Assembly (NCBI GenBank): GCA_902806355.1
Contig: CADCWI010000040.1
Location: 27,748 to 91,747 of the forward strand
DNA length: 64,000 nucleotides
Direction: 5' to 3'
Origin: an uncultured Thermomicrobiales bacterium
GTDB lineage: Bacteria; Chloroflexota; Chloroflexia; Thermomicrobiales; UBA6265
Below the pieces are notes generated by a model, which saw only the letters and a list, made by a program, of their open reading frames with translations, searched no databases and was not told the origin of the DNA. Position numbers and translations under genes: made by a program. Below are positions 1,094-47,253 of this stretch, in pieces (position 1 is the stretch's first letter; each line of letters starts with the position of its first letter).

Positions 1094-1240
1094 CCGGACC
1101 CGCTGATTGGCCGCGAGCAGGCGTCGGTAACGGTGCATGCGCTGCTGCGGCGAAATGACGTCCCGCTGGTGACGCTAACTGACCGAGGTGGTCAGCAACA
1201 CGCGGTTCGCTCTGGCTGCCTCTACTTACAGCCCCATGCT
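1094..1240 (+). pseudogene. N-terminal fragment of an ATPase-LuxR regulator, frameshifted at the P-loop
   Basis: In the + frame from 1064 the residues PLIGREQASVTVHALLRRND are followed by VPLVTLTDRGG. This matches the start of the NB-ARC-type ATPase of LuxR regulators, as in the intact regulator encoded at 12231-14636 ([20 protein letters not shown], then [11 protein letters not shown]). Near base 1188 the frame slips by one: the next frame continues as VSNTRFALAAS, where VGKTRLALAAA would be expected. The Walker A lysine is lost and similarity stops near 1240. The matching C-terminal half lies at 6180-7553 on the same strand, so this may be one gene torn apart. Confidence 0.6.
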
Positions 1241-2926: not shown

Positions 2927-3080
2927 CCTGTGCTCCGCCTGATGCGTGGAGGGGCGGTAACACATAGCGGGGTGCCAACTCTCGACTTGTGAGGGACCCA
3001 GTGAAATAATACTGCCAACTGGGCCCCCGTAAAACGACTATTCCATCCATCCTGCGGCTGATGCGGGCCGCTCACTCCAC

Positions 3081-8768: not shown

Positions 8769-10322
8769 TCAGGCCTGCACGCGATTGAACCGTCCGAGGC
8801 TGTCGTTCTCGAACCCGACCGCAATGCCGTCCGGTCCGAGCACAAACGTCGTGGGCTCCGGGATTGAGGTCACGCTTCCCCAGTCCAGCAGGTAGGTATC
8901 GCGACTGAGGTGCTTCAGGGTGGCCGGCCACCCGGCGGGTCCGGCCTCGAGCTGCAGTGTGCCGGCATCGTACCAGACCACGACCCGGCCATAGAGCTCG
9001 TTCTCGTACGCACCGGTCAGCGCATCGAGGGGCACGGTCACCGGGATCGCGTCTCCCTCGGGCGGGGGTGCGGCAAAAACCGCGTTGATGGCAGCCTCCG
9101 CCGACGCAATCTCCTCCTGGGTGCCAGAATCATCGGTCCCCAGCAGCGCTTCCAGCGCGAAGGCGCGCACCGCCTCCGGGAGAAACGTGAGGTTCCGGTT
9201 GGCGACGACGGCAATGCCGTAGCCAAGTTCCGGCACGAGGTTCACTACCGTGCGCACCCCGGCCAACGCGCCGCCCTTCTCCAGCACGGTGTAGCCCCGC
9301 GTGTGGAACGTGCCCCACCCGAGACCGTAGCTGAACCCGCTCTCGTCGCTGATTGGTGGCGTTTCCGTGAAGGAGATTTCCGATACCATGCTTGGTGCGA
9401 ACATCTCCTCCACGCGCTCCGGCTTCACCACCTGGCGGCCATCAACGGCGCCCTGGTCGAGCAGCATCTGCATCCAGCGCGCCAGGTCGTTTGCCGTGGA
9501 GTAGGCTGAGCCGGCCGCGCCGTGTACCCCATGGAGGTCGCGCTCCACCACCACCATCTCGCCGTCGATCTCGGCGTGCGGCAACGCCGCGTTGTCGTCC
9601 GCGAGCTCGCCAATCGCCGGTCCGCTCCGGATCATGTCCACCGGCTCGAACAGGCGTCCGCGCATGGCCTCCTCCCATCTTGCGCCCGTCAGCCGATCGA
9701 TTACTTCGCCGGCGATGAAGTAGCCGAGGTTGGAGTAGGCGGCGACCTCGCGGAAGCTGCTTCCAGGCGCGACAAAGCGCAGGCGGTACAGCATCTCGGC
9801 CCGGTCGTACCCAAGAGTGCCGAGCAGGTCACCGGTGAACGCGGGCAGGCCCGAGCGGTGGGCGAGGACATCGCGCAGCGTGAGATACCGGGTAGCGTAG
9901 CTGTCCATCAGCTCCAGCTCGGGCAGCACATCGATGATCGGGGTATCCCATCCGATCAAACCATCATCGACGAGGGTCGCGAGGGTGAACGCTGTCATCG
10001 GCTTGGTGTTAGACGCCAGTTGGAAGATGGTATCCGCGTCGACCGGCGTGCTGGTGCCCACCTCGCGGACTCCGTACCCCCTGATCAGCACGGGAGCGCC
10101 GTTGTGCACCACCGCGACCGCGGCGCCGGGTACGTCGTAGCGCTCCACCGCCTGTGCGATGAAGGCGTCAAGGTCCGCTGCGCTGGCGCCATGATCGGGC
10201 ACCGGAGTCGCGCTCTGACCGCTACTGGCCCGGACACCAGCCATGCCGGCTGCCAGCGTGCCAGCGATGCTGCCAATTACTGTGCGCCGGGAAATGCGCG
10301 GGTCTCGCTGTGTCTGTTCCAT
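8769..10322 (-). CDS. Tat-exported beta-lactamase-family serine hydrolase
   Basis: A 517-aa protein of the class C beta-lactamase / penicillin-binding-protein-like family. The signal is SRRTVIGSIAGTLAAGMAGV. The catalytic motifs are S104-N-T-K107 (QLASNTKPM), Y196-S-N198 (AYSNLGYF) and a late KGG (EKGGALAGVRTVV). A long C-terminal extension of about 150 residues forms a second, beta-rich domain as in D-aminopeptidase- or esterase-like members. ATG at 10322 has AGGAGA seven bases upstream; an in-frame ATG 30 codons earlier has no signal. The substrate cannot be told; D-amino peptides, beta-lactams or esters are all known in the family. It is the second of two tandem hydrolases. Confidence 0.88.
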   Translation of the reverse strand: MEQTQRDPRISRRTVIGSIAGTLAAGMAGVRASSGQSATPVPDHGASAADLDAFIAQAVERYDVPGAAVAVVHNGAPVLIRGYGVREVGTSTPVDADTIFQLASNTKPMTAFTLATLVDDGLIGWDTPIIDVLPELELMDSYATRYLTLRDVLAHRSGLPAFTGDLLGTLGYDRAEMLYRLRFVAPGSSFREVAAYSNLGYFIAGEVIDRLTGARWEEAMRGRLFEPVDMIRSGPAIGELADDNAALPHAEIDGEMVVVERDLHGVHGAAGSAYSTANDLARWMQMLLDQGAVDGRQVVKPERVEEMFAPSMVSEISFTETPPISDESGFSYGLGWGTFHTRGYTVLEKGGALAGVRTVVNLVPELGYGIAVVANRNLTFLPEAVRAFALEALLGTDDSGTQEEIASAEAAINAVFAAPPPEGDAIPVTVPLDALTGAYENELYGRVVVWYDAGTLQLEAGPAGWPATLKHLSRDTYLLDWGSVTSIPEPTTFVLGPDGIAVGFENDSLGRFNRVQA

Positions 10323-10483
10323 CGTTCCGTCTCCTGCTGTAAGCAATTTCAGAGGCGTCGACGCCCGTGCTCCCGGGTCGATCACGCAAGCGTGGGTGCG
10401 CCACTCAGGCACACTCGTCGCGAGTTCGGCAGGTCTTCAGTGGACCGAATCCGTCTTCAGCGCAATCACTCAGCTGACCTTCC

Positions 10484-11734
10484 TCAGTGACTTGCCAATG
10501 CCTCGATGAGCACGCGAGCGATCTCGTTGGCGGTCAGCTTCCCGGCCGGCGAGGCCGTCAGGTTGGTGAAGACGATCAGGGTGGTGCCAGTGTCCGGATC
10601 GTGCCCCATGAACGACTGGTAGCCAGGCAGGGATCCATCGTGCCCGATCATCGGGCCAAATTTGGCCAGGGCCAACCCATATGCGGCGGTGCCGATCGGC
10701 TTGAGGCTCGCGATGCGCGTGGCCTGGAGTTCGAGACTCAGGTATTCCCCCGCCACCAGTGCCTCCACATACCGGGCGAGGTCGCCCGCCGTGGCAATCC
10801 CCGCACCTGCCGCCCACCCCCACGATGGGTTCAGGTGCGTGATGTCGGTCGGCACCAGGTCGCCGGCCTCGGCCGCCGCCTGGTCGTCCGCCGAGAGGAC
10901 CGACGTTTCGATCGTCGAGACATTCGTGCCGTACCAGTACCCATTGGGATGCGGATCGGGAATGGAGCTGCCCGTGATCTCAGGAAGGACGATCTGGGTC
11001 AGGCCAAGGGGCCGGAAGAGTCGCTCCTCGAACAGGACCGAGAGGGGCTGGCCGGTAAGCTGTTCGGCGATCAGGCCGGCCAGAACGGTGTTTGTGTTGG
11101 AATAGACGAAGCCCTCACCGGGCGGGAAGTAGACCGGCTCGGCCAACCCGATCGCCACCAGTTCCTCTGGCTTCCACACCCGGGCCGGGTTGGCGTCCAT
11201 CACCTGGTTCAGGGCAAACACCGAGGTGTAGCTGAACAGGCCGGTCGACATGTCTAGGAGTTGGGAAACTCGCATGTTCTCGCCATTGGGAACATCCGGA
11301 CGAAAGCGCGACACAGGATCGTCGAGCGCAATAAGCCCCTCGTCGACGAGCTGTAGGACTACCGTGCCGGTCATCGTCTTCGTGTTGGAGCCAATCCGGA
11401 AGTAGTCGCCGGTCGTGACCGGCACGTCCTCACCCAGCACCCGCGTGCCGAACGCCTCGAAGAATTCGCTCTGCTGAGTTCGAGCCAGCACCACGGCCCC
11501 GGGGACGAGGAGCGCATCCATCGTTTCTTCGATCAGTGGACGGAGCAGGGGGTCGAGGTCACCGGACGCAGGTGTCGACATGGGCGCGGCGTCCTGGGCG
11601 GTGGCCATCGAGAGGCTGGCACCGGCGATCGCCCCGGCGGCGAGGCCGGCGGTCGCCCCCTTCAGGGCCTCGCGACGGGTGAGGCTGCGCTGGGCAAAGA
11701 GCTTGGAGACGGCGTCGAAGCGGCTGGCGTCCAT
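10484..11734 (-). CDS. Tat-exported beta-lactamase-family serine hydrolase (paralogue)
   Basis: A 416-aa protein. The export signal is TRREALKGATAGLAAGAIAG with a following alanine-rich core. The motifs are S116-N-T-K119 (IGSNTKTM), Y211-S-N213 (VYSNTNTVLAG) and H-D-G (GHDGSLPGYQSF), a complete active site of the serine beta-lactamase-like / D-alanyl-D-alanine carboxypeptidase family. GGAGGAGAT lies just upstream of the ATG at 11734, which decides this start over longer ones. It lacks the C-terminal extension of the neighbouring hydrolase. It follows the ABM-like gene by 67 bases and precedes the other hydrolase by 161 bases, so the three may form one transcription unit. Confidence 0.88.
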   Translation of the reverse strand: MDASRFDAVSKLFAQRSLTRREALKGATAGLAAGAIAGASLSMATAQDAAPMSTPASGDLDPLLRPLIEETMDALLVPGAVVLARTQQSEFFEAFGTRVLGEDVPVTTGDYFRIGSNTKTMTGTVVLQLVDEGLIALDDPVSRFRPDVPNGENMRVSQLLDMSTGLFSYTSVFALNQVMDANPARVWKPEELVAIGLAEPVYFPPGEGFVYSNTNTVLAGLIAEQLTGQPLSVLFEERLFRPLGLTQIVLPEITGSSIPDPHPNGYWYGTNVSTIETSVLSADDQAAAEAGDLVPTDITHLNPSWGWAAGAGIATAGDLARYVEALVAGEYLSLELQATRIASLKPIGTAAYGLALAKFGPMIGHDGSLPGYQSFMGHDPDTGTTLIVFTNLTASPAGKLTANEIARVLIEALASH

Positions 11735-11801
11735 GAATGCATCTCCTCCGGTTGGTACCTTGTCAGCCGGCCATTCGCGTTGAGCCGCGGCAATCGGTGC
11801 A

Positions 11802-12086
11802 TCAGCCTCGTGGACTATCGGGCTCCTCCAGGTACCAGTAGTCCGGGCGGTCGGTGACCCCTGCACGTTCCATGAGGTCCAGCAGGTCGTCGGACCGGGT
11901 GAAGAGCCGGGCACGCGCCAGGTCGTCCCACGCCATCAGCAGCCAGATCTCGCACGGATCCGAGTCACTGCGGAAGACACGTGCGCTCTCCGAGCCGTTG
12001 GCACGACGCAGTTCGGCGTCGTCGTCGAAGACCCGCTTCCACGTGTCGTAGTCCGCCACCTTGTGCCGAATAAGCAAGGACCGCAC
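11802..12086 (-). CDS. ABM-like dimeric alpha/beta-barrel protein
   Basis: A 94-aa protein with the pattern of the antibiotic-biosynthesis-monooxygenase / cyclase-like superfamily: RHKVADYDTWKRVFDDDAEL at the start, ESARVFRSDSDPCEIWLLMAW in the middle, and a C-terminal helix and strand ending DYWYLEEPD. Such proteins form small ferredoxin-like dimers and have varied or no enzymatic roles. A second family member occurs at 63609-63893 next to a haloperoxidase. It is first in a row of minus-strand genes leading to the two serine hydrolases. A perfect 18-bp palindrome lies 79 bases upstream and may be its operator. Confidence 0.75.
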   Translation of the reverse strand: MRSLLIRHKVADYDTWKRVFDDDAELRRANGSESARVFRSDSDPCEIWLLMAWDDLARARLFTRSDDLLDLMERAGVTDRPDYWYLEEPDSPRG

Positions 12087-16605: not shown

Positions 16606-17286
16606 ATGGGCGATCTGGATCTCGAACGACCGGAGCTGCGCCTGCGCCACAACGACGCCACCCTCGCGGAAGTGACGCCCACGAATTTGCCGGCCAGCGC
16701 GATCGGCCGCTTTGCCTATCACGGCCTCAATGATGACTATCAGCCCATCCATCGACTCTGCCGGCTCTTTCTCGAGGGGGCGTCGCTGTCCGAGGACGAG
16801 GGTCCGTTCGACTTTCGAGCCTTCCTCGTGGATATGAACCGGCTCTTCGAGGCCTTTATCACCGAGATCCTACGTGAGCGGGGCCCAACGGGGACGGAAA
16901 TCCGGTCACAGTCTCAGCTGTTTCTGGGACAGCAGAAACGGGTCGAGATGAGACCCGATCTCATGGTCGATGTCGACGGGCGGACTGTGCTCGTAGCGGA
17001 TTGCAAATACAAGCGGCTGGAACCCGACCAATTCCGTCACCACGACGTCTACCAGTTGCTCGCCTACTGCACGGCCTCGGACGTGGTGCGGGGGCTGTTG
17101 ATCTACCCCACGCATGAGGTGGCCGTGAAGGATGAGATCCGTATTCGCAACGCGCCAATTGCGATCCGGCAGACGACCCTCGACCTCGGGGGACAGGGTG
17201 AGCTACTGGAGCGAGCATGTGACCGACTTGCCGGCGAGGTGTTCGGCTGGATGGACTCGACACCGGGCAGCGCTCTTGGCAACTGA
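16606..17286 (+). pseudogene. mcrC: Orphan C-terminal nuclease domain of McrC
   Basis: A 226-aa frame. It matches the C-terminal half of McrC, the nuclease partner of the McrBC modified-DNA restriction system. The PD-(D/E)xK site is visible as MRPDLMVDVDG followed by VADCKYKRL. The segment FLVDMNRLFEAFITEILRER is typical of the family just before the nuclease core. Family members are usually 350-450 aa; the N-terminal half that docks on McrB is missing, and no McrB GTPase is in the window. The product may be an inactive remnant, though the nuclease core itself is intact. It probably marks the edge of a degraded defence island that continues into the recombinase region. Confidence 0.75.
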
Positions 17287-19545: not shown

Positions 19546-19932
19546 ATGACGAACATGGGCGACAGTTTCGGGTCACGGCTTCGATTCGTGCGGAAGAGAT
19601 GGTACCTGACGCAACCCCAGTTGGCGGACATTTCAGGTGTTGGAGTCGCGACCGTGCGCCGTGCGGAGAATGGCTACTTCGAACCCCGCCTCGAATCCGC
19701 CCGTCGTCTTGCTGACGCCCTCCATGTTCGGGTCGAATGGCTCTTGACCGGAGACAGTGGCGTCATGGTCCTCCCTTCGCACATGACGGTCGATGAACAG
19801 ATGCAAATGCGTCCATCGGCAGATAGCGAGCATCCGGACACCGTCCTAATCGTCGGACCGGGGCCGTGGTACCGGGACGCCGACGGAGAATGGCAGGTCG
19901 ACGTGGCAGCGGAGAGAATGAATCAGGGATGA
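19546..19932 (+). CDS. XRE-family HTH regulator
   Basis: A 128-aa protein. Residues 8-68 form a Cro/C1-type helix-turn-helix: LRFVRKRWYLTQPQLADISG followed by VGVATVRRAENGYFEPR. The C-terminal half is short and has no peptidase motif. AAAGGAAC lies just before the start. Its TGA overlaps the ATG of the serine recombinase (ATGA), so the two are translationally coupled and the regulator probably controls recombinase expression. It is divergent from the unknown 260-aa gene, so the shared intergenic space could hold its operator. Confidence 0.8.
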   Translation: MTNMGDSFGSRLRFVRKRWYLTQPQLADISGVGVATVRRAENGYFEPRLESARRLADALHVRVEWLLTGDSGVMVLPSHMTVDEQMQMRPSADSEHPDTVLIVGPGPWYRDADGEWQVDVAAERMNQG

Positions 19933-21473
19933 CGACATCAGCGAAACGGGCGGCGATCTATGTCCGCGTCTCCAGCGAAGAACAGGTTCAGGGCTACAGC
20001 CTTTCCGCTCAGGAGCGGGCAGCCGAAGCCTATTGTCAGTCGCACGGCTGGGAGATTGTGAAGACCTATCGGGACGAAGGCCGCAGTGCCCGCACCGACA
20101 ACCTCACCAAGCGTCCTGCATTCGAGGAGATGCTCGACGATGCTGAGCAAGGCCAGTTTGACATCCTGATCGTCCACAAACTCGACCGGTTTGCCCGCAA
20201 CCTGCGCATGACGCTGGAAATGCTCGATCGGCTCGAAACAGCAAGGGTCGGATTCGTCTCGATCTCCGAACAGATGGACTTCACATCCCCCATCGGCAAA
20301 GTGATCCTGGCGACGCTCGCCGCATTCGCGCAGTACTATTCCGACAATCTCAGCACCGAAACGAAAAAAGGTAAAGCCGAGCGCAAGGCCCAGGGCTTGT
20401 ACAACGGGATGCTGCCCTTTGGCATCAAGAAGAACTCGTCCGGGATCCCGGTTCCCGACCCGGAAACCTACGCGGGTCTCCTGCTCGCGTTTCAGCTGGC
20501 AGCCGCTGGGAAAAGTGACCGGGAAGTCGCCCAAGCGCTCAACGCAGCCGGCTATCGCACTACTGGAAACCGCGGGCGCAATCCCTTTACAAAGGACACC
20601 GTCTGTCGCCTGCTCCAGAACCGGTTCTTTTTAGGGGAACTGCCCGACGGGAGTGGTGACTGGATCATGGGGGCTCACGAGCCTGTTCTCGATGATGCGC
20701 TCTTCGACCGAGCCCAAGAGGCGCGGAGGGAGAACCGCACAGCCCCTGGTCCGCGCAGCGTCCCGTCTACCCGACGAACGCATTCACTGTCCGGTCTGGG
20801 CGTGTGCGGCTACTGCGGTGGACGCTTGCATATCCAGACCGATCGTCATGGACGGGCCCGGATCTACTGCTATCGGGGGAGCCAGGGACCCGCTTGCCCA
20901 CAGCGTTCCGTGAAGATCGACGGGATCGAAGCCCAGGTCAGGCAGTATCTGGCGACCTTCCACCTACCAGACGAAACGGTGACCGAGATTATCGACCTGT
21001 ACGACCGAGCGAGCGACCAGCGGGATCACTCTGAGGACCGAAGGCGAGAAATCGCAAATCGGCTCGAGCGGATACGCGAACTCTACAAATGGGGAGACCT
21101 CACAAGGGAGGCATATGCGGCAGAACGGGATCAACTTGGGACGGACCTGAGCACGCTGACCGGAACTACCGATCGAGCCAACATCATGGCACAGGCGGCG
21201 GCGTTCCTGCGCGATTTGCCAGCGGCGTGGGACGCGGCAACGCCGAACGAGCGCAACGCCCTCGCCCGTCTCGTGTTTCAGTCAGTGGAGATCACGGATG
21301 CTCGAGTCGTCGCCGTAGTCCCTCAGCCCGACTTCACCCCGTTTTTCGTAGCCCGAGCAGAAGCGGATGAAATGCTCGTGAGCAACAAAAACGGCCCCGA
21401 GGAGTCGGAGCCGTCAAGTGAGGTATTGAACGGGCGGAAGCGACGGGATTCGAACCCGCGATCTCAGCCTTGA
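19929..21473 (+). CDS. Large serine recombinase (site-specific integrase)
   Basis: A 514-aa recombinase. Residues 7-150 are the resolvase catalytic domain with the nucleophile in YVRVSSEEQ (S15) and HKLDRFARN later. A Recombinase domain follows (QGLYNGMLPFGIKK region), then a zinc ribbon with CGYCGGRLHI and CYRGSQGPACPQ, and a coiled coil about 380-430. It catalyses unidirectional integration of an element between short attachment sites. Start at 19929 overlaps the XRE stop. The last 25 or so residues (from about NGPEESEPSS to RRDSNPRSQP) are encoded by the antisense of the tRNA-Asp terminator and the tRNA gene, so the native C-terminus has probably been replaced on integration. Confidence 0.92.
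   Translation: MTTSAKRAAIYVRVSSEEQVQGYSLSAQERAAEAYCQSHGWEIVKTYRDEGRSARTDNLTKRPAFEEMLDDAEQGQFDILIVHKLDRFARNLRMTLEMLDRLETARVGFVSISEQMDFTSPIGKVILATLAAFAQYYSDNLSTETKKGKAERKAQGLYNGMLPFGIKKNSSGIPVPDPETYAGLLLAFQLAAAGKSDREVAQALNAAGYRTTGNRGRNPFTKDTVCRLLQNRFFLGELPDGSGDWIMGAHEPVLDDALFDRAQEARRENRTAPGPRSVPSTRRTHSLSGLGVCGYCGGRLHIQTDRHGRARIYCYRGSQGPACPQRSVKIDGIEAQVRQYLATFHLPDETVTEIIDLYDRASDQRDHSEDRRREIANRLERIRELYKWGDLTREAYAAERDQLGTDLSTLTGTTDRANIMAQAAAFLRDLPAAWDAATPNERNALARLVFQSVEITDARVVAVVPQPDFTPFFVARAEADEMLVSNKNGPEESEPSSEVLNGRKRRDSNPRSQP
21386..21414 (-). terminator. Rho-independent terminator of tRNA-Asp
   Basis: On the minus strand, ACGGCTCCGA and TCGGGGCCGT form a 10-bp stem with loop CTCC, followed by TTTTTG. 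It lies 21 bases downstream of the tRNA-Asp 3' end. It also lies inside the 3' coding end of the serine recombinase on the other strand. Confidence 0.8.
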
Positions 21474-21508
21474 CAGGGCTGCATGTTAGGCCACTACACC
21501 ACGCCTCC
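21435..21508 (-). tRNA. tRNA-Asp (anticodon GTC)
   Basis: The reverse strand folds as a complete cloverleaf. The acceptor stem is GGAGGCG with CGCTTCC, the anticodon stem CAGCC/GGCTG with loop CTGTCAA giving anticodon GTC, and the T arm GCGGGTTCGAATCCCGT. The discriminator is G; CCA is not encoded. The end of the serine recombinase frame overlaps it on the opposite strand. Confidence 0.95.
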
Positions 21509-38697: not shown

Positions 38698-38703
38698 ATA
38701 CGG

Positions 38704-39065
38704 TGGAGATGGGGGGAATCGAACCCCCGTCCAGAACCTTCAACCGGACATATGCTACACGTTTAGTCGGTGTTTTATCTGCCGTTGATCACTCCCGCCG
38801 ACAGGATTGATCATTGGTGAGTTGGACTGTCTTAGGCGATCGCGCACCAACGGACTTGACCGCCGCACTTCATCTTGGTGACGCCCAGATTCCGATCCGA
38901 CGAAGCGAGATCCGGCTGGACGCGTTGCCTAGAGGTCGGGTGACTTAGGCAGCGTAGGCGAGCTGTGGTTTGTTCGCAGCTACAGTGTTGCCCGTTTTAA
39001 CGAGGCCTCGGGCACCTCGACGTGCAATGGCCTGGCATCCGACCCTGTCGAAACCGGACATCCCC
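38704..39065 (-). ncRNA. ssrA: tmRNA (transfer-messenger RNA)
   Basis: The 5' end GGGGATGTCCGGTTTCGAC and the 3' end GGGGGTTCGATTCCCCC-CATCTCC make the tRNA-like half: the acceptor stem GGGGATG pairs with CATCTCC, and the T arm is complete. Length about 362 nt. The tag reading frame, at 38945-38980 on the minus strand, encodes AANKPQLAYAA then TAA, ending in the AA required by ClpXP-type proteases. CCA is not encoded. It rescues stalled ribosomes with SmpB, whose gene lies 103 bases upstream on the same strand. A TATAAT at 39098-39103 may be its promoter. Confidence 0.95.
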
Positions 39066-39167: not shown

Positions 39168-39665
39168 TTATTCCCGGGAGCGCTCCCTCATCGCTCGCTC
39201 GATCGAACGCTTGGCGTCGCGCTCGGCAACCGCCTGCCGCTTGTCGTACAGCTTCTTCCCGCGAGCGATGCCGACATCGATCTTGGCGCGTCCATTGCGC
39301 AGCCGAATCCTGAGCGGCACCAGGGTCATCCCCTTGCGCTCGGTCTCCTCCTGGAGCTCCTCGATCTGTCGTCGATGGACCAGAAGCTTTCGAGGTCGGC
39401 CAGGATCGTGATTCGCGTATGCCCCGTGGCTGTATGGTGTCACGTTGGCGCCAATCAGCCAGAGCTCGCCGTTGTTGACACGGACGTACGCTTCACCGAT
39501 CGTCACCTTGCCGTCACGGATCGACTTGATCTCCGACCCGGTCAGCGCGAGACCGGCTTCGAGCGTCTCGTCGATGAAGTAGTCGTGGTAGGCTCTTCTG
39601 TTCTGCGTCACCACCCGGTCTCCGGATGGGGATGCGGTCGTTGCACCAGATCGTTGCTTCGCCAT
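39168..39665 (-). CDS. smpB: SsrA-binding protein SmpB
   Basis: A 165-aa OB-fold protein. The conserved motifs are NRRAYHDYFIDETLEAGLAL, TGSEIKSIRDGK and PRKLLVHRRQIEELQ. The basic C-terminal tail (KKLYDKRQAVAERDAKRSIE) enters the ribosomal mRNA channel. It binds tmRNA and guides it to stalled ribosomes. The start at ATG 39665 gives the usual length, with an N-terminal serine/threonine-rich lead; a start ten codons earlier cannot be excluded. It lies directly before ssrA on the same strand. Confidence 0.96.
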   Translation of the reverse strand: MAKQRSGATTASPSGDRVVTQNRRAYHDYFIDETLEAGLALTGSEIKSIRDGKVTIGEAYVRVNNGELWLIGANVTPYSHGAYANHDPGRPRKLLVHRRQIEELQEETERKGMTLVPLRIRLRNGRAKIDVGIARGKKLYDKRQAVAERDAKRSIERAMRERSRE

Positions 39666-39753
39666 TCCCTGACTATAGGCGGGCACTTCCACCATCGTCA
39701 ACGGTACCCGGCGCGACCCCGCGCCAACCCACGACGTCGGAGTTCTTTCTGCC

Positions 39754-40593
39754 ATGACCGCGGATCCTTATGCCCCTATTGCCGAACTCTACGATCTCGA
39801 ACATGCCGGGTTTCGAGACGACATCGACCTGCTGCTCAGCTTTGCCGATATCGTCGGTGACCCGATCCTCGAGATGGGATGCGGCTCGGGTCGGATCCTG
39901 CTTCCACTGGCCGAGGCAGGATATGATGTCACCGGTATCGATCGATCTGCCGCCATGCTCGATCGGGCACGAGCGGGAAGCAGCGAGCGCTCACTCGATG
40001 GCTCGATCCAGTTCATGCATGGTTCGATCCTGGACGCCGACGCGGCTCCGGGAGGCCCGTTCGGTCTCGTGATATTCTCGCTCAACGCCCTTATGCACCT
40101 GCCGACGGCGACAGAGCAGCGAGCCGCACTCGAATCGGCTCTGCGAGCGCTCGATCCCAAGGGTCAGCTCATCATCGATCTCATGAATCCCACACCCGAT
40201 CACCTGACCACGCTTGGCTCGGCACCCATTCTCGAAGGCTCGTGGGCCTTTCCCGATGGCGCGTCTGTAGACAAGTGGGCGCACCGGCGTGTTCACCCTA
40301 CGACCCAGGTCATCGACACGCTCCTCTGGTACGACAGGGTCGGACCAGATGGCACCTTCCACCGGACCAGATCTCGATTTCCGCTACGGTACATCCATCC
40401 GGCAGAGCTCGACTTGATGCTGGAGTTGGCCGGGTTCACCGAAGTCAGGATGTACGGATCCTACGAGATGGACCCGCTCGACGACGATTCGGAACGGCTG
40501 TTCGTGACCGCTGAAGTCATCCCGTCCCGCGCACTTGTCGTAGACACAGAAGATGCCGAACTCCGGACAGATGACCTGCATGAGACGAACTGA
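39754..40593 (+). CDS. SAM-dependent methyltransferase
   Basis: A 279-aa class I methyltransferase. Motif I is ILEMGCGSGRILLPLA, motif II VTGIDRSAAMLDRAR, and motif IV LVIFSLNALMHLP. The N-terminal PYAPIAELYDLEHAGFRDD is typical of small-molecule methyltransferases. The substrate is unknown. It is divergent from smpB and is followed after 17 bases by a small membrane protein, but the three genes here share no clear function. Confidence 0.85.
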   Translation: MTADPYAPIAELYDLEHAGFRDDIDLLLSFADIVGDPILEMGCGSGRILLPLAEAGYDVTGIDRSAAMLDRARAGSSERSLDGSIQFMHGSILDADAAPGGPFGLVIFSLNALMHLPTATEQRAALESALRALDPKGQLIIDLMNPTPDHLTTLGSAPILEGSWAFPDGASVDKWAHRRVHPTTQVIDTLLWYDRVGPDGTFHRTRSRFPLRYIHPAELDLMLELAGFTEVRMYGSYEMDPLDDDSERLFVTAEVIPSRALVVDTEDAELRTDDLHETN

Positions 40594-41149: not shown

Positions 41150-41782
41150 TCAGTGCCATCGGACTATCAACTCGTCGACGTTCCTGCGCTGGCGTCGGCG
41201 TGGCGAAGCGGCCGCCCTGCCAACCGGAAACAGTGCCTGCGGCTCCAGTTCCGTGCCGAGATCGAGCGCGGAACACACGACCTCCGGCGCGAACAGCGGG
41301 GCACACATCCACCCGGCATCGAGTCCTTGCGCGTGAATCGCGAGCAGGAAGTTTTGCGCTGCCGCCCCAAGGCTCTGGATCGCCATGATAGTCTCGGCGT
41401 CCTGCCGGCCGCGATCGGGGTACGTGTCACTGTCACCGAGATAGAGGCACATCACCACAAGCAGGGGAGCCTGTTGCAGTCGCTCCTTGCTTCGGAGGAG
41501 ACGCCGCTCGACAATATGCTCATCCTGGCCGTCGAGACGGAGCTGCTCTCGCCAGGTCTCCGCCATGGCGTCCGCCAGTCGAAAACGCTCGGCTCGAGAT
41601 TCGACGATCGCAAACCGCCATGGCTGCGTTCCGTGCGGTGATGGCGCCCACCCTGCCGCCTCGATCGCGCGCCGGATCGCCCGGGGATCGACCGGCGATG
41701 TCTTGAATGCCCGCACCGAGGACCGTTCCTGAATGACGCTCCAGAGATCATCGGCCCGTTCGTCTGACCGCGGCTCAGTCAT
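41150..41782 (-). CDS. Nitroreductase-family protein similar to the FbiB C-terminal domain
   Basis: A 210-aa FMN-binding nitroreductase fold. The pattern ERSSVRAFKTSPVDPRAIRR, GWAPSPHGTQPWRFAIVES, YPDRGRQDAETIMAIQSLG and GLDAGWMCAPLFAPEVV matches, from memory, the C-terminal domain of FbiB, which reduces dehydro-F420-0 with FMNH2. Free-standing forms are known in Thermomicrobia, so the same role is plausible; a general flavin-dependent reductase is the alternative. It is the last gene of the FMN-riboswitch operon: its ATG follows the stop of the solute-binding protein gene directly. Flavin use by the enzyme fits riboswitch control. Confidence 0.8.
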   Translation of the reverse strand: MTEPRSDERADDLWSVIQERSSVRAFKTSPVDPRAIRRAIEAAGWAPSPHGTQPWRFAIVESRAERFRLADAMAETWREQLRLDGQDEHIVERRLLRSKERLQQAPLLVVMCLYLGDSDTYPDRGRQDAETIMAIQSLGAAAQNFLLAIHAQGLDAGWMCAPLFAPEVVCSALDLGTELEPQALFPVGRAAASPRRRQRRNVDELIVRWH

Positions 41783-43354
41783 TCAGGATCCGGTACCGTC
41801 GCCGACGACGGTCGGGATGACGTACTCGTCACCGCGCGGCTGCCAACTCGAGACGTCCGGCGCAACTCCATACGCCGATATCATGTTCCAGAGGAAGATC
41901 GCCGCGGCATCATCGTGCAGGATGCGTCCCAACTCCCGATACGTGGCGTAACGAACCGTCTGGTCGCTCACGCTGGCGCCACGCTCGATCAGCCGATCGA
42001 CCTCGCTGTTGCCATACCGGGAAAGGAATCCTTCGCTGGCGTAGACCAGACTCAGCAACGTGTGGGGGTCGTAGAGCGGCACCCACGTCGACATGCGGAG
42101 GGCAGGGCGCGTGGCATCGGCCCACCCGGCATTGAACGTGGCATCGTCCGACGTGACGATGGCGAGCTCGATCCCCACATCCCGGAGCTGGGCCGCGATC
42201 GCTTCGGCGACATCGGCTCGCGACGTGGAGGTCATCTCCAGCGCAAGGGCGAAGCCGTCACCCAGCCCTGCCTCGTCAAGTAGGGATCGCGCCAGCTCGG
42301 GATCGTACGCATACGGCTGCAGCTCGGGATCGTATCCCAAGGCCCGCTCGTCCGGGTACAACGAGCCCAGTCGGCGTGCATCCGCGGAAACGAGAGACGT
42401 CGCGATTGCCTGCACGTCGATTGCATGATTGAGTGCGCGGCGCACGCGAAGATCGTCGAGCGGTGCCACATCTGTTGCGATCCGGATCCAGGCAGAGCCG
42501 ACGATCGGTACGTCGATCGCCGACTGTCCGGAATCTTCGACCCTCGCCAACTGGTCCACCGGCAGGTCGGTCACGATATTCGCCGCGCCGGAAGCCAGGT
42601 CGGCGATTCGGGTGCCCGATTCCGGAACGAATCGATACCGGACTCGCTCCGCCATTGGTACGCCTTTGGGGCTCCCCCAGGTGTACGACTCGTTCCGTTC
42701 CAGAACGATCTCGTCACCCGCCACCAAGGAGGCGAACCTGAAGGGTCCGGAGCCCACCGGAGCCGTTGCCGCCAGTTCAGTCGTGTACCCCTCCGGAACG
42801 AGCAGCAGCCACACCGCCATCTGGGCCGGAAGCCACGGCGAGGGCCGGTCGCAGATGATCCGTGCGGTTCTGGCATCGACCACCTCGACACCGGTGATGC
42901 CTCGAAACAGATCGACCGCGAACGATTCCGACTCCTGGAGGTAGGCAACCGAGCGCGCGACCGCGGCAGCATCTACTGGTGAACCGTCGTGGAAGAGAAG
43001 ACCCCGTCGCAACACCACCTCGAATGTGCGGTCGTCACTGGCGGTGAACGATTCCGCCGCGAGCGGGACAAGCCGACCATCCGCGTCGAATCCGATCAGC
43101 GCGTCGTAGATCGAATGGACGATCGACCAGTCACGCGGTGCGTACGCGAGCGCCGGATCGATCGACTCCGGTGTTCCGGAAAGGTCGATCACCACCTCGT
43201 CCAGAAGCGCCTCCTGGCGCAGCGTGCCAGCGTTCAAGGGAAGCTGTCCAAAGCCGGATCGCGCCGTCACCAATCCGCTGCCGGCACCAATGAAGGCCGT
43301 CAGCAGAGAACGCCTGGACACGCCGGATGTCGAAGGTCGAAGTCGTCTGGTCAC
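41783..43354 (-). CDS. Family-5 ABC solute-binding protein (second of tandem)
   Basis: A 523-aa exported protein of the SBP_bac_5 (dipeptide/nickel/oligopeptide) family. The signal is SRRSLLTAFIGAGSGLV. The family signature is SIDPALAYAPRDWSIVHSIY, FEVVLRRGLLFHDGSPVDAA and VRRALNHAIDVQAIA. GTG at 43354 is preceded by GAGG at eight bases and lies just past the upstream stop, so the start is secure. It is close to its neighbour in sequence, so the pair arose by duplication. The two may bind related ligands. It belongs to the FMN-riboswitch operon, so a flavin-related ligand is inferred. Confidence 0.88.
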   Translation of the reverse strand: MTRRLRPSTSGVSRRSLLTAFIGAGSGLVTARSGFGQLPLNAGTLRQEALLDEVVIDLSGTPESIDPALAYAPRDWSIVHSIYDALIGFDADGRLVPLAAESFTASDDRTFEVVLRRGLLFHDGSPVDAAAVARSVAYLQESESFAVDLFRGITGVEVVDARTARIICDRPSPWLPAQMAVWLLLVPEGYTTELAATAPVGSGPFRFASLVAGDEIVLERNESYTWGSPKGVPMAERVRYRFVPESGTRIADLASGAANIVTDLPVDQLARVEDSGQSAIDVPIVGSAWIRIATDVAPLDDLRVRRALNHAIDVQAIATSLVSADARRLGSLYPDERALGYDPELQPYAYDPELARSLLDEAGLGDGFALALEMTSTSRADVAEAIAAQLRDVGIELAIVTSDDATFNAGWADATRPALRMSTWVPLYDPHTLLSLVYASEGFLSRYGNSEVDRLIERGASVSDQTVRYATYRELGRILHDDAAAIFLWNMISAYGVAPDVSSWQPRGDEYVIPTVVGDGTGS

Positions 43355-43356
43355 TT

Positions 43357-44904
43357 TTACTGCCTCTCGGTACGAGTCGGTATCACGTAATCGTCGCCCC
43401 GTGGCGACCATCCCGTTCCAAAATTCCGAACGCCATAGATCGACGTCAGGTTCCAAAGAAAGACGGCCGGTGGTGCGTCCTGGAAGTGCTGTCCTAGCTC
43501 CCGATACAGCCCCGCCCGGCCCGCAGGATCCGGTTCCTTCCCGGCTGCCCCAATCAGCTCGTCGGCCCGTGGATCGCGGTGCCGGGTCAATGGTCCGGTA
43601 CTCGCGAACATGAGGCTGAGCAACGTGTGTGGATCGTAGACCGGTCGCCAGCTCACGAGACGAACCGGTGCCGAGTCGGGTTCCGTCCACGTCCCGTTGA
43701 AGGTGGCGAGATCGACGCTTTCGATGGAAACGTTGATCCCGACATCAGCCATGTTCGCGGCAATCGCCTCAACGATGTCCCCCCGCTCTCCCACGACATG
43801 TTCGAGCCGAACATCGAATCCGTCAGCGTATCCCGCCTCGGCCAGGAGTCTCCTCGCTGCCTCCGGATCGAACGCAAACGGCGTAAGATCCGGGTCGAAG
43901 CCGATGGACCGTGCATCCGGATACAGCGAGGCCAGCCTTCGGGATTCGGTGCCGACCAGGGCGGTCGCGATCGTCGACACATCGACGGCATGGTTGAGCG
44001 CCTGACAAACTTTCGGATCATCGAACGGCGGCGTGTCGGTCGCAATTCGCAGGAACATCGTGCCGAGGATGGCCGCTTCCTCCACCGTGCCACCGCTTTG
44101 CTCGACCGCGTCCCGCTGCTCCTCCGGAACGCTGACGATCAGGTTCGCTGCCCCGGTGGCGAGATCGGCGACCCGCGTCGACGAATCCGGCACGACACGG
44201 ACCCGGACCCGTTCGGCCAGCGGGATTCCCTTTGGGCTCTGCCACGTGTACCCGAAATTCCGACGGAGGACGATCTCGCTGCCCGCCTGCAGGGATTCGA
44301 AGCGGAACGGCCCTGAACCGACCGGCGCCGTCTGGAAGAGATCAGTCGTCATTCCGTCGGGAAACAGCACCGCCCATACCGCGAGCTGGGAAGGAAGCCA
44401 TGGGGCAGGTTCCGCGGTCACGATCCGCGCCGTCAGGTCATCGATCACGTCGACGCTCGTGACTGCGGCGAAGTTCCGAGCGGCCGGTCCTTCGGATTGC
44501 TGCACGTGGGAGATCGAGCGTGCGATCGCCTCGGACGTGACAGGCGAACCGTCATGGAACGTCAGCCCGGGCCGAAGCACCGCTTCGTAAGTCAGGTCAT
44601 CGATTGCCTCAAAGCGCTCAGCGGCGAGCGGCACGAGGTCTCCCGCTGGACCCATCTCGATCAGCGCATCATAGATCGAGTGCAGGATCGTCCAGTCGCG
44701 ACTCGATCGCGTAAGCGCGGGGTCGAGATTGTCGGGGCCGCCAGCGACATCGATCACCAGTTCATCGGCAAGCTCAGGCGTCGCCTGCCTGGCATGCGCG
44801 GTCTGGAGCCCGAGATACCCGCGTGGAAGCAGTGAGCCGGCAATGCCGGACAGACCCGCCTGCATCATGAATCGTCTGGTAAGGGCTGTTACGCGGTTGG
44901 GCAT
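43357..44904 (-). CDS. Family-5 ABC solute-binding protein (first of tandem)
   Basis: A 515-aa SBP_bac_5 protein with signal RRFMMQAGLSGIAGSLL. Conserved blocks are NLDPALTRSSRDWTILHSIY, YEAVLRPGLTFHDGSPV, VCQALNHAVDVSTIATAL and RLLSWRPVYDPHTLLSLMF-type sequence. It aligns along its full length with the following gene. It comes after the two permease genes, with a 63-base gap. No ATPase gene is in the operon, so a shared or distant ATPase must energise it. The ligand is unknown; the riboswitch context suggests a flavin or deazaflavin. Confidence 0.88.
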   Translation of the reverse strand: MPNRVTALTRRFMMQAGLSGIAGSLLPRGYLGLQTAHARQATPELADELVIDVAGGPDNLDPALTRSSRDWTILHSIYDALIEMGPAGDLVPLAAERFEAIDDLTYEAVLRPGLTFHDGSPVTSEAIARSISHVQQSEGPAARNFAAVTSVDVIDDLTARIVTAEPAPWLPSQLAVWAVLFPDGMTTDLFQTAPVGSGPFRFESLQAGSEIVLRRNFGYTWQSPKGIPLAERVRVRVVPDSSTRVADLATGAANLIVSVPEEQRDAVEQSGGTVEEAAILGTMFLRIATDTPPFDDPKVCQALNHAVDVSTIATALVGTESRRLASLYPDARSIGFDPDLTPFAFDPEAARRLLAEAGYADGFDVRLEHVVGERGDIVEAIAANMADVGINVSIESVDLATFNGTWTEPDSAPVRLVSWRPVYDPHTLLSLMFASTGPLTRHRDPRADELIGAAGKEPDPAGRAGLYRELGQHFQDAPPAVFLWNLTSIYGVRNFGTGWSPRGDDYVIPTRTERQ

Positions 44905-44967
44905 CGGTGAACTCCATGATGGCGGGCCCCTCGGCCCGGGATAAAGAACGGAATCAGGAAAGGCTTT

Positions 44968-45897
44968 TCACGAGATCTTTCCGCTATGCCGCCGGGCCGG
45001 GTCGAGCCGTTCCTGAAGCCAATCCGCGAGCATATTGAACCCAAGCACGGCAAGCACGATCATCGTGCCGGGCAGCACGCTTACCCACCATCCGGTGAAG
45101 ATCGCATCCTGGCCATCCCGGATCATCCCGCCGAGGGAGATCCGGTCGACCGGCAGGCCGACGCCGAGGTAGGTGAGCGATGCCTCCCACAACATGACCG
45201 CCGCGATTTGCTGGCACAACAACACCAGCAGCAGCGGCAGGACATTGGGCAGAAGGTGATGGCGTATCACCCATCGCCGTCGTGCCCCGATTGCGATCGA
45301 CGCCCGGACGAAGTCCGAGCCGAGCAGTTGGCGGCTCTGCAGGCGGAGAATCCGCGCGTAGGAGATCCAGCCAAACAGCGTCAGGATGATCAGCAGGTTG
45401 GGAAGGCTCTGTCCGATCATCGTGGTCAGCACAATCCCGACGACGATCGTGGGGACGGACAGCAGCACCTCCACGATGGTGGTCAGGACGCCATCGACGA
45501 TTCCCCGGTTGGCGGCCGCAACGAGCCCGGCGGCCGTTCCGATCACGGCCGAGCCCCCCGCCGCGATCAGCCCGATCACGAGCGAGAGCCGGGCACCATG
45601 CATGACCCGTGCAAGGATGTCCCGGCCCAGGCCATCGGTGCCCAGCGGAGCCTCCCAGGAGCCTCCGATCCAGACGGGAGGAGCAAGGCGGTTCGGCAGA
45701 TCCTGCGTCTGCGGGTCCCGCCCGAGCAACGGACCAACCAACGCGATCATCAGGAACGTCACGATCGGGAGGAGCGGCAACATCGACATCCGGTTCGCAC
45801 CATGCCCGCCACGCCGGCGAGGAGCGGTCGCGCGCCTCGGCACGTCCTGGAAGCGCCTCGGGAACGATGGTGCGGGCAGCGCCTGAGGATCACCCAT
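44968..45897 (-). CDS. DppC-type ABC transporter permease
   Basis: A 309-aa permease with an N-terminal span then five spans of the BPD_transp_1 fold. The lead LGTDGLGRDILARVMHGARL is the hallmark of DppC/OppC, and the EAA loop is ASIAIGARRRWVIRHHLLPN. The start codon overlaps the previous stop by eight bases (ATGGGTGA), so the two permeases are translated together. It forms the membrane channel with the DppB-type protein. Confidence 0.92.
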   Translation of the reverse strand: MGDPQALPAPSFPRRFQDVPRRATAPRRRGGHGANRMSMLPLLPIVTFLMIALVGPLLGRDPQTQDLPNRLAPPVWIGGSWEAPLGTDGLGRDILARVMHGARLSLVIGLIAAGGSAVIGTAAGLVAAANRGIVDGVLTTIVEVLLSVPTIVVGIVLTTMIGQSLPNLLIILTLFGWISYARILRLQSRQLLGSDFVRASIAIGARRRWVIRHHLLPNVLPLLLVLLCQQIAAVMLWEASLTYLGVGLPVDRISLGGMIRDGQDAIFTGWWVSVLPGTMIVLAVLGFNMLADWLQERLDPARRHSGKIS

Positions 45898-46831
45898 AGG
45901 ACATCGACAGGGATGTGCCGGACCGTTGCCGGGGGTCGAGGGCGATGGCCACAAGGTCGACGGTGAGATTGATGGCGGCGACCAGCACGACGGTAACGAT
46001 CACGAACGCGTGGACAACCGGCACGTCTCGATCCATGGTCGCCTGCAGCGCCAGACGTCCCACGCCCGGATACGCGAACACCGACTCGATGACGATCGCT
46101 CCCCCTACCAGCAAGCTCGCCTGAAGTCCGATATACGCAAGCGCCGGAATGATCGCGTTCGGGAGGGTGTGCCGCAGCCACACGTACTGCCGCGAGAGGC
46201 CCTTGCCATGGGCGACCGCGACGTACGACGAAGAGCTTGCCTCCAGCAGGGCACTTTGGAGGAGCCGGGCAATCATCGACCCAGGATGGGCGGCGAGCGT
46301 GAACGCGGGCAAGACCAGCGAAAGCACTTCATCGCTTCCGGAAGACGGCAACCACTGGAGCCGCACCGCGAACAGGATGATCCCGATCGTGCCAAGCCAG
46401 AATGCCGGGATCGCCTGACCGCCCATCGCGAAGATCCGGACGGACGCCCGAAGGATGCCCGGGGGCAACATCGCGGAGACAATGCCCAGCGCGGTGCCGC
46501 CAATGATGGCGATTGTGGCGGCGGCAATACCCAACAGCAGCGTTGCAGGCAGGCGATCGAGGACGGCCCCAAGCGCTGGTTGCCGATCCCGCCAGGACGA
46601 CCCGAAATCACCGGTCAATGCGTCGGCCAGGAACCTGACGTACTGCTCGGCGAGCGGTCGATCTAGCCCCAACCGGACGCGGACGGCATCCCGGACCTCC
46701 TCGGAAGAGCCGGGGGCAAGAAACCCGGTCGTCGGATCGCCCGAAAGGTGGATCAACACGAAGATGGTAGTAGACGCTGCCGCGGTGGTGATCAGCAACT
46801 GGATCACGCGGCGAATCGCGAAGGCGACCAT
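45890..46831 (-). CDS. DppB-type ABC transporter permease
   Basis: A 313-aa permease with six spans. The start IRRVIQLLITTAAASTTIFV and the text LIHLSGDPTTGFLAPG are typical of DppB/OppB, and the EAA loop is YVAVAHGKGLSRQYVWLRHT. ATG 46831 fits the family start; GTG 46849 is an alternative. It is the first gene behind the FMN riboswitch, 211 bases downstream of the aptamer, and so the direct target of control. Confidence 0.92.
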   Translation of the reverse strand: MVAFAIRRVIQLLITTAAASTTIFVLIHLSGDPTTGFLAPGSSEEVRDAVRVRLGLDRPLAEQYVRFLADALTGDFGSSWRDRQPALGAVLDRLPATLLLGIAAATIAIIGGTALGIVSAMLPPGILRASVRIFAMGGQAIPAFWLGTIGIILFAVRLQWLPSSGSDEVLSLVLPAFTLAAHPGSMIARLLQSALLEASSSSYVAVAHGKGLSRQYVWLRHTLPNAIIPALAYIGLQASLLVGGAIVIESVFAYPGVGRLALQATMDRDVPVVHAFVIVTVVLVAAINLTVDLVAIALDPRQRSGTSLSMSYG

Positions 46832-46955
46832 GAATGCCCTGGCGGGCACTTCCCAACGACAACTCGACCTTTCCGGCGCCCGCCGCCATACATGGCGACG
46901 CGACGCGCAAAGGCTCCGTTGTCCTCACCAAGTGCCCCCGATCGTTGACCCGGGC

Positions 46956-46992
46956 ACACAAACACCCGGGACCGGAGGCCTACGGGTGTGGA
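46956..46992 (-). other. Possible expression-platform hairpin of the FMN riboswitch
   Basis: An inverted repeat (ACACCCG at 46961-46967 and CGGGTGT at 46982-46988) lies about 55 bases downstream of the aptamer on the minus strand. An overlapping CCCGGG pair offers an alternative fold. No run of U follows, so a classical terminator is doubtful; Rho- or start-site-based control are alternatives. Confidence 0.3.
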
Positions 46993-47042
46993 ATGTTGCG
47001 GAGCGGCAGAGGCCGACCAGCAAAGCTGGACGACTTCCAAAT

Positions 47043-47182
47043 GCCTTCTCCCATCCGGACTTTACCGTCGGCCCCGGAGTTTCACCGGATCGTGCGTTCG
47101 TGCTCCCACGTTCGCTTGCGGGCTGTACCGCCGGTCAGGACTTGATCGTCATAGTTCGACGACCTCACCAAACCCCGAAGGC
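47043..47182 (-). promoter_or_regulatory. FMN riboswitch (RFN element)
   Basis: The minus strand shows all conserved RFN blocks in order: CCTTCGGGG at the 5' side, GACCGGCGGTACAGCCCGC, ATCCGGTGAAACTCCGG, GGCCGACGGTAAAGTCCGGA and TGGGAGAAGG closing the P1 stem with CCTTC. The P2 hairpin is enlarged by a small extra stem (TCGTC/GACGA). The aptamer binds FMN and usually shuts off riboflavin synthesis or uptake genes. Here it points at the Dpp-type permease operon, not at rib genes. The dnaJ stop lies 72 bases upstream, so the transcript probably starts in that gap. Confidence 0.93.
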
Positions 47183-47253
47183 TCAATTGCAGTTGACTCT
47201 AACGGGACGAGGTCCGTTCGTCAATGCCGGACCTCGCCATCCTTCCAGGACTC

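Follow-up and report, generated by a model that had tools for sequence, protein, structure and literature searches.

The window analyzed here is a stretch of 64,000 nucleotides from an uncultured Thermomicrobiales bacterium (contig CADCWI010000040.1), in which an aptamer for flavin mononucleotide (FMN) is followed on the reverse strand by an operon of five genes that joins components of a Dpp-type ATP-binding cassette (ABC) transporter to a nitroreductase. A covariance-model search of the whole window recovered the aptamer as a full-length match to the Rfam family RF00050 (model positions 1-138 of 138) at 47039..47186 (-), scoring 88.9 bits (gathering score 66.2, E-value 5.9e-19). An earlier, sequence-only reading of the window had claimed an aptamer here and named this search as its check, and the match bears the claim out; the end coordinate given there fell 4 bases short. 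Directly 5' of the aptamer lies a promoter-like site, TTGACG-17-TAGAGT (47196..47224, (-)), from a consensus scan that found one such site against a mean of 0.1 in shuffled sequences; taken alone, it is no evidence of function.

The operon opens with a dppB-type permease gene (45890..46831, (-); 313 aa; PF00528, 101.6 bits, and PF19300, 34.1 bits), overlapped by a dppC-type permease gene (44968..45897, (-); 309 aa; PF00528, 107.6 bits). Next come the genes for two family-5 solute-binding proteins (SBPs), namely SBP1 (43357..44904, (-); 515 aa; PF00496, 214.4 bits), which has the twin-arginine-like motif TRRFM (found by pattern), and SBP2 (41783..43354, (-); 523 aa from the GTG at 43354; PF00496, 214.5 bits), with the comparable motif SRRSL. 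The last gene (41150..41782, (-); 210 aa; PF00881, 108.9 bits) codes for a nitroreductase resembling FbiE, a free-standing homolog of the C-terminal domain of FbiB. The family scan was run on longer open frames for SBP2 and both permeases, and the Pfam complement of the operon is two BPD_transp_1, two SBP_bac_5 and one Nitroreductase domain. This confirms the one-strand order dppB-dppC-SBP1-SBP2-nitroreductase that had been proposed for the locus: SBP2 begins 2 bases after the SBP1 stop and the nitroreductase gene at the base after the SBP2 stop, so that the genes overlap or lie at most 2 bases apart, except for the 63 bases between dppC and SBP1. Upstream of the operon lies dnaJ. The genes that run from it to the nitroreductase gene were all identified, and no ATPase gene is among them, as had been noticed earlier; a lone ATPase elsewhere was not searched for. 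We infer that the ATPase is encoded elsewhere and shared with the DppBC permease.

Between the aptamer and dppB, the leader contains a terminator-like hairpin (ACACCCG...CGGGTGT, 46962..46989, (-); -14.4 kcal/mol) whose run of U is weak and interrupted. It was picked up by a looser hairpin scan and the leader alignment; a stricter terminator scan of the window reported no terminator at 46989-46962. When 12 leaders from related operons are aligned, a block ACCCG...CGGGT appears 3' of the aptamer, with a T-rich stretch after it. Further, among 20 scanned leaders (that of genome G012 was left out), 15 have their best hairpin with a T-rich tail at 47-62 nt past the end of the aptamer, against 38 of 600 dinucleotide shuffles. 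The top hairpin lies elsewhere in four of these leaders (G001, G007, G014 and G016), yet a similar block is visible in the alignment, and in that of G009 the match is weak and shifted. A terminator separating the aptamer from the permease gene had been named as a ground for rejecting their association. Such a hairpin is present, but because it recurs at the same distance from the aptamer in 15 of the 20 leaders, it is better read as part of the switch, and it is probably the expression platform of the riboswitch. The switch would likely act by transcription attenuation, with FMN predicted to turn the operon off.

Distribution of the operon

When a genome collection was scanned with an SBP1 alignment of 24 rows, 413 places matched, and the 80 best were retained. 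Among these, loci L001-L018 carry parts of the operon and are labelled Thermomicrobiales, Chloroflexia, Chloroflexi or Sphaerobacteraceae. The Rfam FMN aptamer was found upstream in 11 of the 20 loci L001-L020 (7/12 and 4/8), and a site found later in L009 scores 66.0 bits, just below the cut-off. In the six lower-ranked loci examined (L019-L023 and L034), the SBP gene precedes dppB and dppC. The order riboswitch-dppB-dppC-SBP recurs in other assemblies, a survey of relatives having been suggested earlier as a check, and because it does so it is more than chance.

The counts given below refer to two sets of genomes. The first comprises 42 members of a single order, gathered by starting from G013 and filtering for completeness at 80; the second is a wider set of 50 (G001-G050), which adds eight operon carriers (G001, G003-G008 and G012). 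We called the operon by SBP matches of at least 450 bits (16 genomes), and in G046 by a partial SBP (285 bits) with an FbiE-like gene behind it, which places it in 17 of the 42 genomes and in 25 of the wider set. The aptamer stands before dppB in 20 of these 25 (in G009 just below the cut-off), and in the other five (G005, G010, G011, G045 and G046) the contigs end too early. All 44 FMN sites in the 42 genomes could be placed: 13 precede dpp operons, 8 RibXY-like genes and 23 rib genes. The RibXY-like operons were so named by their architecture and not by comparison with the RibY of C. aurantiacus.

Riboflavin and F420 genes of the operon genomes

Across the 42 genomes, riboflavin synthase (RibE) was found in 21, lumazine synthase (RibH) in 20, 3,4-dihydroxy-2-butanone 4-phosphate (DHBP) synthase in 20 and flavokinase in 40. 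The distribution of the first two with respect to the operon is skewed: 14 of the 17 operon genomes lack both RibE and RibH as against 5 of the 25 others (Fisher p 1e-4, uncorrected for kinship), with RibE/RibH present in 3/17 and 20/25, respectively. Flavokinase is kept in 16 of the 17 operon genomes, with no match in G013. Among the five genomes that lack the operon as well as RibE/RibH, four (G020, G024, G025 and G027) have an FMN-switch RibXY-like operon, and in the fifth (G022) no FMN site was found. PF01872 alone is a poor marker of RibD, with matches in 47 of the 50 genomes, mostly to proteins at or under about 100 bits; RibD was counted only at 160 bits or more, which excludes the broken matches of G016 and an edge fragment in the rib contig of G031. 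Four genomes (G028, G029, G030 and G031) code for a protein of about 480-510 aa that scores 161-169 bits with RibD_C and lies on a contig other than the rib contig; they have no CofD above the cut-off.

The chromophore precursor of coenzyme F420, FO, is formed from tyrosine and ribityldiaminouracil, the latter also being an intermediate of riboflavin synthesis, according to excerpts of a review (PMC8498797). CofH exceeds its cut-off in 10 of the 50 genomes (479-496 bits), and none of the 25 operon genomes shows a match even at E 0.001. Sub-cut-off matches of 19-33 bits (G023, G025, G028-G032 and G034) were taken as absences, and G033 has none. Of the genes for later steps, CofD is above the cut-off in 39 of the 50 genomes, including 19 of the 25 operon genomes, and CofE is found in 39 of the 42. 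Since 17 of the 25 operon genomes have CofD with neither CofH nor a RibD match of at least 160 bits (G016, with its broken RibD pieces, is among them), these show no known route to FO. Counting a lack of RibE/RibH as a need for riboflavin, and CofD without CofH as a need for FO, we find an importer of the dpp or RibXY-like kind in 24 of the 28 genomes with such a need versus 1 of the 14 others. Moreover, CofH is absent from 6 of the 7 rib-positive genomes that have an importer.

The operon also adjoins F420 genes in several genomes. In G016, G018, G047 and G048, a gap of about 0.1-0.4 kb separates the switch from an upstream cluster of cofD, cofC, cofE and a luciferase-like monooxygenase (LLM)-class oxidoreductase gene. 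For the F420 cluster of G009, in which cofC was not called, the gap is about 1.2 kb, and about 1.2 kb also lies between the end of cofE and the switch in G015, where the intervening stretch is not resolved. With one further gene allowed for, the distance from cofD and cofE down to the switch is within about 1.3 kb in all six genomes. The F420 genes of G049 are about 10 kb from the switch, and in G002 a cofD-cofC-cofE-LLM cluster and the dpp operon lie on separate contigs, the genome's sole strong FbiE-like match being inside the dpp operon.

That many operon genomes retain CofD, CofE and FbiE-like genes but neither CofH nor RibD might also be explained if the late F420 enzymes acted on riboflavin instead of FO, yielding a flavin-based analog of F420 and making FO import unneeded. 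An LLM-class enzyme encoded next to cofE at L140 would fit this, as it scores 339 bits with TIGR03885, a family described as FMN-dependent (cut-off 398.7, unreached). However, the same enzyme reaches the F420-dependent subfamily TIGR03557 (304.8 versus 210.4 bits), and the scores of CofD with its F420 model are 285-339 bits in genomes without CofH and 317-325 bits in those with it. We consider an analog of this kind highly improbable.

The FbiE-like nitroreductase

The product of the last gene matches TIGR03553, the model of the FbiB C-domain, with 170.9 bits, under the equivalog cut-off of 249.55; that cut-off is reached in none of the 50 genomes, including those with the gene by cofD. Its best match among solved structures is 4xom, annotated as coenzyme F420:L-glutamate ligase (FbiB) and listed beside 4XOO and 4XOQ, which are FbiB C-domain entries according to the excerpted review (PMC8498797). 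An FbiE-like match of at least 140 bits occurs exactly once in 37 of the 50 genomes and more than once in none. The gene is present in 20 of the 25 operon genomes, in all 20 beside the binding-protein gene of the operon; of the 17 non-operon genomes with the gene, 13 have it at a distance of 0.8-4 kb from cofD. The resemblance to the FbiB C-domain that had been seen in the sequence is upheld by this single-copy distribution and linkage, with the score remaining below the TIGR03553 cut-off; they support an FbiE-like assignment, for which reduction of dehydro-F420 is the predicted activity.

In G024 and G025, the FbiE-like gene follows RibXY-like genes under an FMN switch, and in G020 and G027 it lies elsewhere. 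In the FbiE tree, the pair of RibXY-linked genes clusters with a cofD-linked one (support of 88 in the Shimodaira-Hasegawa-like approximate likelihood ratio test, SH-aLRT) inside a group of 12 without dpp-linked rows (SH-aLRT 99). As the pair groups with the cofD-linked gene, apart from the dpp-linked rows, the tree suggests that the FbiE-like gene moved into FMN-switch operons twice, separately. Among the genomes compared, the nitroreductase of G002 is closest to that of the window (66%). At L141, the last operon gene (10563-11669) codes for an FbiE-like domain fused behind a PPOX domain (TIGR03668, 142 bits versus a cut-off of 119.15; the family is named F420-dependent). By reading, the same fusion is seen in L008, L010, L015 and homologs, the NCBIfam scan having been run on L141 only.

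The binding proteins

SBP1 and SBP2 share 52% identity, and most relatives with a readable 3' part have a single binding protein. In the binding-protein tree, a single tandem duplication, specific to the lineage, gives rise to the pair in the window's subclade, and both copies occur in the window and in G001, G002, G003, G013 and G050 (SH-aLRT 90 and 99). The column of DppA Asp408, which we take to be the anchor of the peptide amino group, holds a Pro beside a one-residue gap in all 25 aligned binding proteins (24 chosen rows of the SBP1 alignment, not all known from such operons, plus SBP2). An AlphaFold2 model of SBP1 made from the 24-row alignment was set aside, as its mean pLDDT (predicted local distance difference test) of 65.8 is too poor for a comparison of pocket or fold.

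These proteins bear on one alternative, namely that the operon is an ordinary importer of peptides, opines, glutathione or nickel that came under an FMN switch by chance. Its component families are indeed those of the Dpp/Nik/Gsi transporters, and proteins that bind glutathione, opines, heme and nickel are among the top matches of the binding protein to solved structures. Against this, none of the NCBIfam equivalog cut-offs listed for Dpp/Nik/Gsi-type transporters is reached, the peptide-anchoring column is Pro throughout, the switch precedes dppB wherever the contig extends far enough (one of these sites scoring 66.0 bits, just below the cut-off), and the operon tracks the absence of RibE/RibH and CofH. 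Thus, we regard an ordinary importer as quite improbable.

A candidate salvage system for riboflavin and FO

Several computed features frame the interpretation: the aptamer, the gene order and the conserved hairpin; the absence of riboflavin synthesis genes from most of the surveyed operon genomes and of CofH, for FO synthesis, from all of them; the retention of flavokinase and the late F420 genes in most; and the placement of fbiE. The uptake of a flavin or deazaflavin, which had been put forward on the strength of the riboswitch, agrees with the lack of RibE and RibH in 14 of 17 operon genomes and of CofH in 25 of 25, as support from genome context. From this context, the ligand is very probably a flavin or deazaflavin of some kind; riboflavin import appears most likely and FO import less sure, with the balance tipping slightly toward a ligand range that includes both. 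The reading that we prefer, to which we give a probability of roughly 0.55, is that the operon is an FMN-feedback-controlled salvage system importing riboflavin and FO.

Under the preferred reading, scarcity of FMN would leave the aptamer empty and disfavor the terminator-like hairpin, presumably in that order, so that dppB-dppC-SBP1-SBP2-fbiE is transcribed. The exported binding proteins would capture riboflavin and its deaza analog FO, and the DppBC permease would carry them inward with the putative ATPase encoded elsewhere. RibF would then convert riboflavin to FMN and FAD (flavin adenine dinucleotide); CofC, CofD and CofE would take FO to dehydro-F420; and the FbiE-like enzyme, the product of the last gene, would reduce it to F420. 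As to a source, PMC11917521 describes FO as typical of the supernatants of F420 producers, with 1.2-2.6 micromolar in three cited cultures.

The main rival is that the operon imports riboflavin only, replacing its synthesis, with FbiE there for another reason (e.g., an enzyme that needs FMN) and FO entering otherwise or F420 remaining unmade. That the aptamer senses FMN and that RibE and RibH are so often missing from operon genomes fits this as well. Further, five of the 25 operon genomes (G003, G005, G009, G013 and G050) show no FbiE-like match of 140 bits, and three of these (G003, G013 and G050) keep the operon with both binding proteins all the same; G003 and G050 also lack CofD, as expected of riboflavin-only import, and G013 keeps CofD. 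Three other genomes (G019, G023 and G026) have CofD, no CofH and neither a dpp nor a RibXY-like importer, so another source of FO, or gaps in the assemblies, must be possible. On the other side stand the presence of the FbiE-like gene in two kinds of FMN-switch transporter operon (dpp and RibXY-like), the proximity of cofD and cofE upstream in six genomes, and the absence of CofH from 6 of the 7 rib-positive importer genomes. Weighing these, we hold riboflavin-only import to be unlikely and prefer an importer of riboflavin and FO.

Other observations also weigh against the preferred reading. Three operon genomes of the 42 (G016, G045 and G048) possess RibE and RibH; in G016 (contig C65), the RibE, RibH and RibD matches are each in pieces and DHBP synthase is whole, reflecting either decay or assembly errors. 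In the wider set, G003 has RibD. No cofE is seen near the operon in 18 of the 25 operon genomes, partly from short contigs. Eight of the 50 genomes entered solely as operon carriers, the counts come from one clade, and most of the genomes are metagenome-assembled, so the absences rest largely on such assemblies. Finally, the 16 operon genomes with a flavokinase row form one group in the flavokinase tree (SH-aLRT 99; unrooted, drawn with midpoint), and because they group together the operon and rib counts are not independent. Within this group, rib genes appear at three separate places (G016, G045 and G048). Probably, the operon was acquired once and the rib genes were lost repeatedly, or regained, and the independent events are fewer than the counts suggest.

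In its fullest form, the preferred reading would describe a Thermomicrobiales lineage auxotrophic for flavins and the F420 chromophore, which scavenges the riboflavin and FO of its neighbors through one transporter and finishes F420 with FbiE, the duplicated SBPs dividing riboflavin and FO between them. The persistence of both copies in G003 and G050, which lack CofD and the FbiE-like gene, speaks against one SBP serving FO alone. Since both copies persist in genomes without late F420 genes, the odds of this fullest form are slightly lower, and we offer it tentatively, as possible rather than probable.

Comparison with known transporters and significance

The transporters listed with FMN riboswitches in the accessible portion of PMC4418817 are RibU, RibM, RibN, ImpX, RibXY, an RfuABCD homolog, a COG2814 protein (RibZ) and RibV; none is listed there as Dpp-type, which agrees with the earlier statement that the known ones belong to other families. 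The closest parallel is RibXY of Chloroflexi, which, like the operon, has an FMN riboswitch and combines an ABC permease and a binding protein without an ATPase, as described in excerpts of PMC3766115, where RibXY is also said to compensate for the missing rib operon of Roseiflexus castenholzii. The RibXY of C. aurantiacus complements an E. coli riboflavin auxotroph (PMC4418817, same portion). The RibXY-like operons of our survey have one permease and an NMT1/THI5-type binding protein, whereas the window operon has two Dpp-type permeases, SBP_bac_5 instead of NMT1/THI5 binding proteins and, as in most of its relatives, an F420-maturation gene. With the Dpp/Opp/Nik importers, it shares two BPD_transp_1 permeases and SBP_bac_5 binding proteins, but it differs from them in having no DppD/DppF in the operon, in its FMN-riboswitch control, in the Pro at the Asp408 column and in reaching no equivalog cut-off. 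Likewise, the last gene has its best NCBIfam and solved-structure matches with FbiE and the FbiB C-domain; unlike known FbiE, it sits inside a transporter operon under an FMN switch and scores below the TIGR03553 cut-off. A free-standing homolog, FbiE, reduces dehydro-F420 in Thermomicrobium roseum according to the review excerpts (PMC8498797). We file the operon as a putative variant of FMN-switch flavin importers, outside RibXY, DppABCDF and the TIGR03553 equivalog.

In the portions of the open-licence literature consulted, we found no description of an FMN-riboswitch Dpp-type transporter or of FO salvage. If the preferred reading is true, the operon would extend the FMN-riboswitch flavin importers by a new family of transporters and would point to bacteria that use F420 but rely on others for FO. 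With the two purified binding proteins and fluorescent ligands, the cross-feeding of F420 precursors would then be open to direct test.

Other features of the window

A gene for transfer-messenger RNA (tmRNA; 38701-39065, (-)) lies beside smpB (39168-39755, (-)); smpB also follows the operon in L001, L003, L004 and L147, and a tmRNA was found in L001 (where it is cut), L003 and L004. Elsewhere, a gene for an McrBC component (16606-17286, (+)) and one for a serine recombinase (19866-21473, (+)), whose end overlaps a tRNA gene (21435-21508, (-)), possibly mark an integrated element with a defense gene. Two adjacent genes of the PF00144 (Beta-lactamase) serine hydrolase family occupy 8769-10412 and 10484-11914 (-), and in the product of the gene at 1226-2965 (-) the receiver domain of a response regulator is fused with an oxidoreductase domain of the pyridine nucleotide-disulphide type.

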